Origin: Pelagibacterales bacterium SAG-MED47
GTDB lineage: Bacteria > Pseudomonadota > Alphaproteobacteria > Pelagibacterales > Pelagibacteraceae
Assembly (NCBI GenBank): GCA_014653355.1
Contig: JACWEO010000005.1
Location: 1-64,000 of the forward strand
Length of the DNA: 64,000 nt
Reading direction: 5' to 3'
Shown here: in pieces, positions 41,012 through 45,145 of the stretch
Layout: every line of letters starts with the position of its first letter
Position numbering within the stretch: the stretch's first letter is position 1
Made by a program: the position numbers and the translations under genes
Notes under the pieces: model-generated
Told to the model about the DNA's origin: nothing
What the model saw: only the letters and a program-made list of their open reading frames with translations
Database searches by the model: none

Positions 41012-42341
41012 CGATAATCCAGATATAAGAAATATTCTTAATGAGTTGATAATTGATGCTGGTTATAAAACGAGAATAGCAGCAAATTATAATCAAGCAT
41101 TAAGTGAGATTGATAAAAAAATGCCTGATGTAGCAATACTCGATGTAAAACTTGATAAAGGTGATAACGATGGAATAGAACTTTTAACTCATATTAAATC
41201 AAAAAACAAAGACGTTCCGGTTATCATAATTACAGGACATGCAAATATAGAGATGGCCGTAAATTCATTAAAACACGGTGCTTTTGAATTTGTCGAAAAG
41301 CCTTTTGATCAAGCACGACTTTTAAATTTTGTTGGTAGAGCTGTGGAAAATTTGAGTCTCAAATCACAGAATAAAGAATTTGAGAGTAAACTATTTTCCT
41401 CTTATGAGTTAATAGGTAATAGTAAAAATATTTTAAACATAAAAGAGCAGATAAATAAAATTGCTTTAACAGACAGCAGAGTTTTGATTAATGGACCCTC
41501 AGGGTCAGGAAAGGAATTAATAGCAAGAAAAATTCACAAAAATTCAAAAAGAAATACTAAACCTTTTGTTATATTAAATGGTGCTTTGCTTGACTCAAAC
41601 AAATATGAGTCTGAATTATTCGGCGAAGAAAAGGCGAATGGTTCAATATCTTATGGAGCCTTAGAGAAATCTAACAAAGGGACTTTATTAATTGACCAAG
41701 TTTCTGAAATTCCATTAGATATACAATCTAAAATTTTAAGAGTTTTAACTGACCAAAAATTTAAAAGATTAAATGGTAACTATGATGTAAATGTTGATGT
41801 AAGATTAATTTGTTCTTCAAGCAAAGACTTAAATGAGGAAATTAAAATTGGAAATTTTAGAGAAGATCTATATCATAGATTAAATGTATTTGAGATTAAT
41901 ATTCAATCGCTAAATGAAAGAATTTCTGATATACCCTTATTGATTAACTATTTCTCTGAAAAAATTTCAAAAAGTTATAATATTAGAAAATTAGAAATTG
42001 ATGAAAACAACTCTTATATTTTAAACCATAATTGGCATGGAAATGTTAGAGAATTAAGAAACCTAATAGAAAGGATCGCCATTTTACAACCTAATACTAA
42101 GGATAAGATTTCAAATATTATTAAAGAGTCGTTAAAAACACATAATTTTAATGAGAAAATTACTGAAAATAGTTTATCTGTACCATTAAAAGAAGCTAGA
42201 GAAAAATTTGAAAAAGAGTATTTAACTATTCAATTAAAAAAATTTAATGGAAATATATCAAAAACAGCAAATTTTGTTGGTATGGAGCGAAGTGCTCTTC
42301 ACAGAAAGTTAAAAGTTTTAGGAATTAAAGAATTTAATTAA
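40986..42341 (+). CDS. ntrX: NtrX-type response regulator with degenerate AAA+ domain
   Basis: The 451-residue protein has a receiver domain (phosphoacceptor Asp53 in VAILDVKLDKGDNDG; EFVEKPFD with the conserved Lys), then an NtrC-like AAA+ domain (Walker A GPSGSGKE, 170-177), and a Fis-type helix-turn-helix at the end (FNGNISKTANFVGMERSALHRKLK). The loop that carries GAFTGA in sigma-54 activators reads ESELFGEEKANGSISYGA, so the sigma-54 contact motif is missing. The Walker B motif is LLIDQVSEIP, with Gln238 in place of the catalytic Glu. It is therefore unlikely to drive sigma-54 transcription and more likely acts as a DNA-binding regulator with sigma-70. Nearby trkAH and aapJQMP suggest nitrogen or osmotic control. 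Confidence 0.93.
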   Translation: MAIEILIVDDNPDIRNILNELIIDAGYKTRIAANYNQALSEIDKKMPDVAILDVKLDKGDNDGIELLTHIKSKNKDVPVIIITGHANIEMAVNSLKHGAFEFVEKPFDQARLLNFVGRAVENLSLKSQNKEFESKLFSSYELIGNSKNILNIKEQINKIALTDSRVLINGPSGSGKELIARKIHKNSKRNTKPFVILNGALLDSNKYESELFGEEKANGSISYGALEKSNKGTLLIDQVSEIPLDIQSKILRVLTDQKFKRLNGNYDVNVDVRLICSSSKDLNEEIKIGNFREDLYHRLNVFEINIQSLNERISDIPLLINYFSEKISKSYNIRKLEIDENNSYILNHNWHGNVRELRNLIERIAILQPNTKDKISNIIKESLKTHNFNEKITENSLSVPLKEAREKFEKEYLTIQLKKFNGNISKTANFVGMERSALHRKLKVLGIKEFN

Positions 42342-42342
42342 A

Positions 42343-43734
42343 ATGAATATAATTATATGTGGTGCTGGAAGAGTAGGTTTTACTATTGCCAAATTATTAA
42401 GTGAGCAAGGGCATTCTATAACTGTAATTGATCAATCTAGTGATGATATACAAAAAATAAATGATAGCCTTGATGTTAAAGCTATTGTAGGAAAAGCTAC
42501 CTATCCGTCTATACTTGAAAAAGCAAGTGCTTCAGAAACTGACATGATTATAGCTGTCACCCGAAATGACGAAATAAATATGCTTATATGCCAAATAGCA
42601 TATTCAATTTTTAATATACCTAAAAAAATTGCCAGAATAAGATCACAGGATTATCTTAATCCAAAATTTACAAAAGTTTATAGTAAAGAGAATTTGCCTA
42701 TTGATGTAATTATTTCACCAGAGATTGAGATAGCAAAATCTATTCAAAGAAAATTAGAAGCACCTGGTGCTTTAGATAGTGTCCCTTTTGCAAATAATAG
42801 AATTAGATTATTAGAGATTCTAATAAAAGAAAATTGTAAATCTATAAATATAAAATTTAATGAACTTACAAAGAAATATCCAAAGGTAGAGGCTAATGTT
42901 ATTGGAATAAATAGAGCAGAAAAATTTTTTATACCCAAAAAAACTGACTCAGTAAAAAGGGATGATAAAATTTATGTAATAATAAATTCCTCTCAAATGG
43001 CAGAAACTTTAGAGGCCTTTGGTCATGAAGAAAAAATTTCAAAAAAAATATTGATTATTGGAGGTGGTAATATCGGTTATAATTTAGCTAAAAATATTGA
43101 GGAAACATTAGAAACTGTAAGAGTAAAGATTGTAGAAAAAAATAAAGAAAGAGCAGAATATCTAGCTAATGAATTAAATGATACAATAGTTATTAATGGT
43201 AACGGTTTAGATGAAGAAGTTTTAACAGAAGCAAATTTAGATGAATCTGAAACAGTATTGGCTTTAACTAATGATGATGAAGATAATTTGATGGTTAGTG
43301 TTCTTGTAGAAAAATTTGCAAAAGATCAAAAAAAAGTAGATGAAAAGAGAACTATGGCATTAATTAATAAACCTAATTATTCTTTACTTCAATCATCTTT
43401 AAAAATTGATGATCTTATAGATCCAAGAATGAATACAGTATCTAGTATTTTAAAACATGTTCATAAAGGAACTATTGAAAATGCTTATACTATATCTAAT
43501 GGTGAATATGAAGTGATAGAGGCAGAGATTATTGAGACATCTGAACTTATAAATAAAGAATTGAAAAATTCTAATTTACCAGACGAAGTCAGAATTGGAG
43601 CAATATTAAGAGATAAAAAGGTTATTATACCAAGATCTAATTTCATCTTTAAAAAAGACGACCAAGTTGTTTTTCTTGCTAAAAAGGATTCAATTTCTTT
43701 TGTTGAAAATATTTTTAGATTAAGCTCAGTTTAA
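42343..43734 (+). CDS. trkA: Trk potassium uptake regulatory protein TrkA
   Basis: TrkA is the cytosolic NAD/ATP-binding gating subunit of the Trk K+ uptake system. The 463-residue protein is a tandem of two RCK modules. The first Rossmann fold begins NIIICGAGRVGFTIAKLL (residues 2-19), and the second begins ILIIGGGNIGYNLAKNIEE (about 232). Each is followed by a TrkA_C domain. It is placed directly after ntrX (1 bp gap), as trkA is in many alphaproteobacteria, and 4 bp before trkH, its membrane partner. Confidence 0.95.
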   Translation: MNIIICGAGRVGFTIAKLLSEQGHSITVIDQSSDDIQKINDSLDVKAIVGKATYPSILEKASASETDMIIAVTRNDEINMLICQIAYSIFNIPKKIARIRSQDYLNPKFTKVYSKENLPIDVIISPEIEIAKSIQRKLEAPGALDSVPFANNRIRLLEILIKENCKSINIKFNELTKKYPKVEANVIGINRAEKFFIPKKTDSVKRDDKIYVIINSSQMAETLEAFGHEEKISKKILIIGGGNIGYNLAKNIEETLETVRVKIVEKNKERAEYLANELNDTIVINGNGLDEEVLTEANLDESETVLALTNDDEDNLMVSVLVEKFAKDQKKVDEKRTMALINKPNYSLLQSSLKIDDLIDPRMNTVSSILKHVHKGTIENAYTISNGEYEVIEAEIIETSELINKELKNSNLPDEVRIGAILRDKKVIIPRSNFIFKKDDQVVFLAKKDSISFVENIFRLSSV

Positions 43735-43738
43735 TTAA

Positions 43739-45145
43739 ATGTTTGGATTACAGATAAGATATCTTAGTTTTTTTTTTGGTTTAATATCAATCTTATCTTT
43801 TTTTAATATAATTTATTCATATTATTTAAATTTATATCTTAATTTAGATACTTATTATTATACTTTTATAGTTTCACTTTTGTTGTTTATAATATTTTAT
43901 AAAATAATTATTCCTGATAGAAAACCTAATATTTATAATAAAATTTTTACTGTATTCTTAGGTTATATCTTAATACCTTTAATTTTATCTATACCATTTT
44001 ATTTTAGTATTTATAATTTAACTTTTCTAAATTCTTTTTTTGAGTCTGTTTCAGGTTTTACATCAACAGGTTTTACAATATTCGATAATACAAAATTGAT
44101 AGATCAAAGCTTAATTCTGTGGAGATCTTCCACTCAATGGATTGGTGGTCTTTATTTTTTATTTTCAATAATCTTTTTAATTGATATCTATGACGAAAGT
44201 TTTAAGAAAACGCTAACAAATTATATTTCTTTTAATAGTTCTGAGGTATTAAAACAGGCAATAAAGATCTTTTTCTTATATTCAGGATTAACACTTTTAA
44301 TTTTTATAATTTTAAATTTGATATCTATTAGATCCTTTGACTCTTTAAATTTAGCGTTTACAATTATTTCCTCAGGTGGTTTTTTACCAGTAAATGATTT
44401 ATCAAATATATTTAAAGAGCATTTTCAGATAATTGTCTTATCAGTTTTAATGTTATTTTCATTCTTCAGTATTTTTTTTAGTTACAACTTAATTTTTTTC
44501 AAAGATAAAAATATTAATTTTTTCTATGAGGATTTACATTTAATTTTTTATCTTTTAATCATTGTTTCAATTTTTTTTCTTTTTTTTAGTTTCAATAATG
44601 ATTTTTCTTACAATTTTTTATCAGCGGCAAGTAGCATGTCAAATATTGGTTTTTCATTAAATTCACAACAATCAAATTTATCTTTTGTATTTTTAATTTT
44701 AGTAATTATTGGAGGATCTTTTTTTTCTACTAGTTCTGGTCTCAGATTAATAAAATTATATTCTTTGTTTAAATATTCTATTAATCAAATACTTTCTTTC
44801 AGTAGACCAAAGAATATTTACACAAATAAGTTGATGTTTAGTAAAATAAACTTTGATTTTAATGAAATTAACAAATATTTTTTAACAATTTTAATATTTA
44901 TTATTTCTCTTTTTATTTTAATCTCTTTACTGACATTAAGTGGTATTAATTTTGAAAATTCATTTAAATTATCAGTTTTAACTTTGATGAATACGGTAAA
45001 TTCTTCAATTTATGGTCTAGCTGATTTTAATTTTACTAATCTTCATTTTCTAACAAAATTTACTCTTATTTTCTTTATGATTATCGGTAGAATTGAATTA
45101 TTAACAATCTTACTTCTCATGAAAAAATTTCTTTTTAAAAATTAG
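43739..45145 (+). CDS. trkH: Trk potassium transporter membrane subunit TrkH
   Basis: TrkH is the K+-conducting subunit. The 468-residue protein has about 10-12 membrane segments. The four pore-loop glycine regions are visible: VSGFTSTGFTIFDN (about 105), FTIISSGGFLPVND (about 210), SAASSMSNIGFSLNSQ (about 305) and TLMNTVNSSIYGLADFN (about 420). It follows trkA immediately. The coding sequence is very T-rich because of its hydrophobic content. There is no recognisable terminator in the 33 bp before tRNA-Arg. Confidence 0.92.
   Translation: MFGLQIRYLSFFFGLISILSFFNIIYSYYLNLYLNLDTYYYTFIVSLLLFIIFYKIIIPDRKPNIYNKIFTVFLGYILIPLILSIPFYFSIYNLTFLNSFFESVSGFTSTGFTIFDNTKLIDQSLILWRSSTQWIGGLYFLFSIIFLIDIYDESFKKTLTNYISFNSSEVLKQAIKIFFLYSGLTLLIFIILNLISIRSFDSLNLAFTIISSGGFLPVNDLSNIFKEHFQIIVLSVLMLFSFFSIFFSYNLIFFKDKNINFFYEDLHLIFYLLIIVSIFFLFFSFNNDFSYNFLSAASSMSNIGFSLNSQQSNLSFVFLILVIIGGSFFSTSSGLRLIKLYSLFKYSINQILSFSRPKNIYTNKLMFSKINFDFNEINKYFLTILIFIISLFILISLLTLSGINFENSFKLSVLTLMNTVNSSIYGLADFNFTNLHFLTKFTLIFFMIIGRIELLTILLLMKKFLFKN

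Follow-up and report, generated by a model that had tools for sequence, protein, structure and literature searches.

The ntrX gene of Pelagibacterales bacterium SAG-MED47 raises the question of what ATP does in a response regulator whose AAA+ domain carries glutamine in place of the catalytic Walker B glutamate. The gene was studied in a window of 64,000 nucleotides, by which the whole analysed stretch of DNA is meant (contig JACWEO010000005.1, positions 1 to 64,000). The bacterium belongs to the SAR11 group, the most abundant bacteria of the ocean.

Identity and context of the window's NtrX

The gene encodes NtrX, which forms a two-component system with NtrY and is its response regulator. Receiver, AAA+ and Fis-type helix-turn-helix domains were all found, with ntrY directly upstream, trkA downstream and no GAFTGA. 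The top NCBIfam model was NtrX with 536.8 bits, followed by the next family about 200 bits lower. While the curated NCBIfam cut-off of 600, an annotation threshold, was not reached, the lower score was read as SAR11 divergence because of the operon context and because Brucella NtrX was the best solved match (PDB 5m7n), being the closest solved relative both by sequence and by fold. From the features of a bEBP in the strict sense, Sigma54_activat homology was present (162.6 bits for the AAA+ domain, Pfam), while GAFTGA, the Walker B DE pair and an rpoN gene in the genome were not found. The structure model (pLDDT 87.5), which speaks to the fold only, predicted an intact fold.

The 3' end of ntrY overlaps the start of ntrX by 26 bp, and the ntrY product has H378 of HisKA and the HATPase boxes DNGIG and GTGLG all intact. 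The trkA gene is likely part of the same operon. The coordinates of all features are collected in Table 1.

Table 1. Genes and NtrX motifs in the window (window coordinates)
Feature	Position	Strand	Remarks
ntrY, cognate sensor histidine kinase, 600 aa	39209..41011	+	Pfam NtrY_N, HAMP, HisKA, HATPase_c
ntrX, NtrC-family response regulator, 451 aa	40986..42341	+	REC-AAA+-Fis; Pfam Response_reg, Sigma54_activat, AAA_lid_14, HTH_8
Receiver phospho-acceptor Asp53	41142..41144	+	Invariant across all NtrX compared
Walker A GPSGSGKE, residues 170-177, intact	41493..41516	+	G170, G173, G175, K176 invariant, 212 NtrX
Switch asparagine Asn198, present here, lost in genus g2	41577..41579	+	Pairs with the Walker B Glu in the glutamate switch of PspF
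Shortened L1 loop ESELFGEEKANGSISYGALEK, residues 208-228	41607..41669	+	Alignment with NtrC paralogues and Aquifex NtrC4
Walker B Asp237-Gln238 (GAC CAA), not DE	41694..41699	+	Sequence reading
Arginine fingers Arg292 and Arg298, within NFREDLYHRL, intact	41859..41879	+	Alignment
Sensor II Arg355, intact	42048..42050	+	Alignment
trkA, K+ uptake regulatory subunit	42343..43734	+	Pfam TrkA_N/TrkA_C; next gene after ntrX
trkH-like K+ transporter subunit	43739..45145	+	Weak Pfam match PF02386, 31 bits vs cut-off 27

At Walker B, residues 234-238 read LLIDQ, with Asp237 encoded by GAC (41694-41696) and Gln238 by CAA (41697-41699). The GAFTGA of sigma-54 activators is replaced by the shortened L1 loop, of which residues 208-225 read ESELFGEEKANGSISYGA (window 41607-41660). 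The initial annotation had described LLIDQ at Walker B and a missing GAFTGA, and both the description and the numbering proved right when the open reading frame and its codons were reread.

Absence of the GAFTGA loop

About 280 distinct NtrX proteins were gathered, covering the genus, family, order and class of the window's bacterium. GAFTGA occurred in none of these ~280 aligned alphaproteobacterial NtrX, Brucella NtrX included, and Caulobacter NtrX has already been described as lacking it (PMC10274813). A loss specific to Pelagibacter is ruled out by this universal absence among the NtrX aligned; the loop was most likely lost early, at the root of alphaproteobacterial NtrX or close to it. 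The initial annotation had set the missing loop beside the Walker B change; the two are of different standing. Judged by these homologues, the absence of GAFTGA is an ordinary NtrX trait and has no special meaning for Pelagibacter.

Residue 238 across SAR11 and the class

Gln238 was found in 96 of the 98 distinct NtrX of the window's Pelagibacter subclade (codons CAA in 81 and CAG in 15), with one His (L128) and one Asn (L125) making up the rest. In contrast, all 24 NtrX of the sister subclade, which belongs to the same Pelagibacter genus, carried Glu. Asn occurred in 22/22 NtrX of genera g2, g3 and g4 of the same family, and Glu in genera g5 and g6 (9/9) as well as in a second family, f2 (22/22). 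Genome by genome, residue 238 was Glu in G011, Gln in G013 and Asn in G158. Throughout the wider class, Glu was present in 102 of 106 NtrX rows; His (L076), Asn (L319), Asp (L297) and Gln (L338) occurred once each, and in one further class row (L137) Asn replaced Asp237. The glutamine of the initial annotation is natural and fixed in one subclade, and is no trait of SAR11 NtrX in general: Asn stands in three genera and Glu in the rest.

A one-codon error of sequencing or assembly, for which nothing speaks beyond the draft state of the window's genome (43 contigs), has practically no probability left and was ruled out, since 96 distinct NtrX of the subclade share Gln through two codons. An alignment of SAR11 relatives had been proposed as the check for such an error; it returned Glu in the sister subclade, yet Gln in 96/98 of the window's own.

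In a careful tree of 61 NtrX, the Pelagibacter subclade with Gln, His and Asn (support 100/97) adjoined Glu-bearing Pelagibacter, while the Asn genera formed a separate clade (98/91), giving two origins of a non-Glu residue 238 in SAR11. A single origin of all non-Glu SAR11 NtrX was rejected when these were constrained to one clade (AU test, p-AU 0.00012). On a tree of 212 rows, residue 238 required six or more switches between Glu and another residue. Four further losses of Glu in the class fell outside SAR11 and were counted as independent because they lie in different families and not by branch support, since long branches are numerous on the quickly built 212-row tree. As reconstructed on these trees, the loss of the catalytic Glu is lineage-specific and recurrent, with at least two independent losses within SAR11.

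In about 40 Pelagibacter genomes ntrYX seemed to be lost; this was rejected as mostly unreal, lipA, which lies a few kb away, being also undetected in most of the 18 genomes checked. In four draft Pelagibacter genomes with lipA (L357-L360), the contig ends 0.4-2 kb past lipA and before ntrYX, so that the absence there is probably an assembly gap. Two broken copies of ntrX were also observed. In a complete genome of 1,284,727 bp (L130, G158), the frame is broken in the receiver near an A-rich stretch, with residues 4-72 and 73-448 in different frames; a pseudogene, a sequencing error or frameshifting all fit. In genus g2, the ntrX of one genome (L272, G598) shows one internal TAA stop.

rpoN and the NtrC-type paralogues

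The profile PF04552, which picked up rpoN in control genomes that carry it, did not find rpoN in the window's genome (1.13 Mb, 43 contigs, ~91% complete), and none of the 294 genomes of the order scored above the family cut-off. The statement of the initial annotation that Pelagibacter has no RpoN agrees with this result. One sub-threshold match of 19.8 bits (L062, G021:C2:141677-142015), a partial match to the sigma-54 DNA-binding domain in an open frame of 874 aa, is likely due to chance.

In the class, rpoN was present in 66 of the 80 genomes tested, including all five with an altered NtrX Walker B pair; these five were chosen for their oddness and serve as a check for exceptions, not as a random sample. 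The 14 genomes without rpoN kept DE in NtrX without exception. A link between the loss of rpoN and the loss of Glu is thus unsupported, and the absence of rpoN, from which the initial annotation had argued to a changed role of the domain, does not account for the Walker B change: altered genomes outside SAR11 carry rpoN and rpoN-less genomes keep DE. The region upstream of ntrX was additionally read in 40 operons of other alphaproteobacteria, where an NtrC-type paralogue occurred in 34. DE was present in 34/34 of these paralogues and GAFTGA or GSFTGA in 31/34. Together, the rpoN counts and the DE of the paralogues indicate that the loss of Glu tracks the NtrX family and not the loss of sigma-54.

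Conservation of the AAA+ domain

The median number of changes per site on the 212-row NtrX tree was 30. Zero changes were counted at the Walker A residues G170, G173, G175 and K176, which bears out the earlier description of Walker A as intact, and zero also at R273 and R298. R292 changed once, D237 and R355 twice each, Asn198 five times and residue 238 eight times. In the Gln subclade, the binding residues were kept in 98/98 NtrX and Asp237 in 97/98. The Walker B of Ca. Pelagibacter SCGC AAA795-A20 (L223) reads LLIEQ, a D237E change at the Mg-binding Asp that is unique in the Gln subclade.

Rough pairwise estimates, with synonymous sites near saturation, gave a dN/dS of the AAA+ domain of ~0.08 in the Gln subclade versus 0.13 in the Glu sister subclade, and of 0.30 in the Asn genera versus 0.20 for their receiver. 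The low dN/dS and the kept binding residues indicate that the AAA+ domain of the Gln subclade is not decaying, while the faster AAA+ domain in the Asn clade would fit a partial relaxation there. In genus g2 (L047, L049, L269-L273), Asn198 is changed to Asp in addition to the Walker B Asn, which leaves neither residue of the glutamate switch pair unaltered. At the sensor I Asn position, NtrX of the class varied (S in 46, N in 37 and T in 13), and in 32 NtrC-type paralogues of the same operons N or H occurred in 30.

Proposed role of ATP in NtrX

The window's NtrX is probably a member of the NtrC family that binds ATP through its AAA+ domain and can do without hydrolysis. The sequence pattern agrees with this reading, with residue 238 replaced repeatedly among nearly unchanged ATP-holding residues, DE kept in the paralogues and the fold predicted intact, and PspF E108Q, R. 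capsulatus NtrC and the Brucella NtrX structures, all described below, speak for it as well. SAR11 has only sigma-70 and sigma-32 as sigma factors, and NtrY/NtrX is one of its four two-component systems, phosphorylated NtrX having been detected by phosphoproteomics (PMC13198564). In the proposed mechanism, NtrY would phosphorylate NtrX at Asp53, ATP would sit in the AAA+ domain as a ligand of structural or allosteric function and be hydrolysed hardly or not at all, and NtrX would work with RNA polymerase carrying sigma-70 or sigma-32. Since the sigma-54 loop was lost long ago in alphaproteobacterial NtrX, hydrolysis would already have been dispensable before SAR11 arose. The catalytic Glu would therefore have been free to change and was lost several times, with Gln, Asn or His able to replace it without loss of function, while the ATP-holding residues remained constant. 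An ATP-binding, non-hydrolysing sigma-70 regulator, as the initial annotation had suggested, appears as the best explanation from these comparisons; the absence of rpoN as the cause of the Glu loss drops out.

As a counterpoint, Glu is kept in most GAFTGA-less alphaproteobacterial NtrX and must be of some use there, whether structural or catalytic. Why most NtrX retain it is the main puzzle; the Glu might, for instance, be needed structurally where subunits meet. The need of Caulobacter NtrC for both Walker motifs, the residual activity of PspF E108Q and the faster AAA+ domain of the Asn clade also weigh against the main reading.

A doubtful but still appreciable alternative is that SAR11 repeatedly evolved an ATP-locked NtrX, in which the change from Glu to an amide was selected and would turn the AAA+ motor into a permanent ATP-holding assembly or a sensor of energy charge. 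Such an NtrX, tightly bound to ATP and pre-assembled, would be constitutive or sense the ATP level and would suit a streamlined genome. The engineered PspF E108Q, also a Glu-to-Gln change, displays exactly such locking, with less than 1% ATPase, ATP bound 30-fold more tightly and hexamers formed constitutively (PMC4132715). Likewise, the change is repeated in SAR11 with amides in both large clades, Gln is retained across synonymous codon changes (CAA 81, CAG 15; 96/98), and Walker A residue 172 differs too, being Ser in the window's subclade versus Thr in the sister subclade. However, selection for Gln and tolerance of it fit alike, since Glu to Gln takes one base change and the two Pelagibacter subclades have fixed differences at no more than about seven sites; His and Asn are also found at residue 238. 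Brucella NtrX reportedly lacks ATPase activity and nucleotide-driven oligomers even with its Glu.

It is improbable that NtrX of the Gln, Asn and His types still hydrolyses ATP slowly and needs to do so, helped by another acidic residue or the switch Asn. The nearly invariant arginine fingers and sensor II and the acidic residue 241 of nearly all NtrX could be so explained, and PspF E108Q is not fully inactive and supports some activity (PMC4132715). Its ATPase is nevertheless below 1%, genus g2 has lost the switch Asn198 too, and residue 241 is acidic in the NtrC paralogues as well, hence no special replacement. Slightly less probable again is plain decay, with the AAA+ domain as a spacer, ATP binding gone and the Walker B change as one step of erosion; the faster AAA+ domain of the Asn clade and the lost Asn198 of genus g2 point that way, but in 212 sequences Arg273, Arg298 and the Lys and glycines of Walker A are invariant and the AAA+ dN/dS in the Gln subclade is low.

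Novelty and significance

NtrX, its lack of GAFTGA and NtrC relatives acting at sigma-70 promoters are already known, and ntrX is reported to be essential in Caulobacter. A search confined largely to open-access literature returned no account of NtrX losing its Walker B Glu naturally and repeatedly. In the lineages described here, the catalytic Glu of an AAA+ transcription regulator has been exchanged in nature more than once, and closely related proteins with Glu are at hand as controls. Two events that are easily merged can be separated, as the loss of sigma-54 contact is ancient and concerns the whole family, while the loss of Glu is later and repeated and is not tied to the loss of rpoN. 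Whether ATP is fuel or ligand in NtrX and in GAFTGA-less NtrC relatives thereby becomes directly testable. If the ATP lock were true, it would govern NtrX in the most abundant marine bacteria.

Comparison with known systems

VpsR and FleQ are likewise NtrC-family members, able to work at sigma-70 promoters with no need of ATP hydrolysis (PMC10274813, PMC10723142). Unlike the window's NtrX, they are controlled by c-di-GMP and are not NtrX orthologues. Caulobacter NtrC also lacks GAFTGA and acts at sigma-70 promoters, but both its Walker A and Walker B are required in vivo, as judged from D235A and not from a change of the Glu (PMC10274813). Rhodobacter capsulatus NtrC is a further activator of the family without GAFTGA; according to the passage of PMC10274813 that cites this work, ATP binding is needed at its sigma-70 promoters and hydrolysis is not. 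It is a paralogue, NtrC and not NtrX.

PspF E108Q and the Walker B mutant of NtrC1 (PDB 4qnm, 3m0e) belong to the same AAA+ subfamily and are altered at this very site. They are engineered sigma-54 activators with GAFTGA, whereas the window's NtrX carries a natural change and has no such loop. NtrX of Brucella abortus is an orthologue with the same three domains, no GAFTGA and 41-42% identity. It reportedly binds ATP, with no ATPase activity and no oligomerisation with nucleotide. Its structures (PDB 5m7n, 5m7o and 5m7p) were solved with ATP and with ADP, and it differs from the window's NtrX in that the Walker B Glu is kept (LYLDE).
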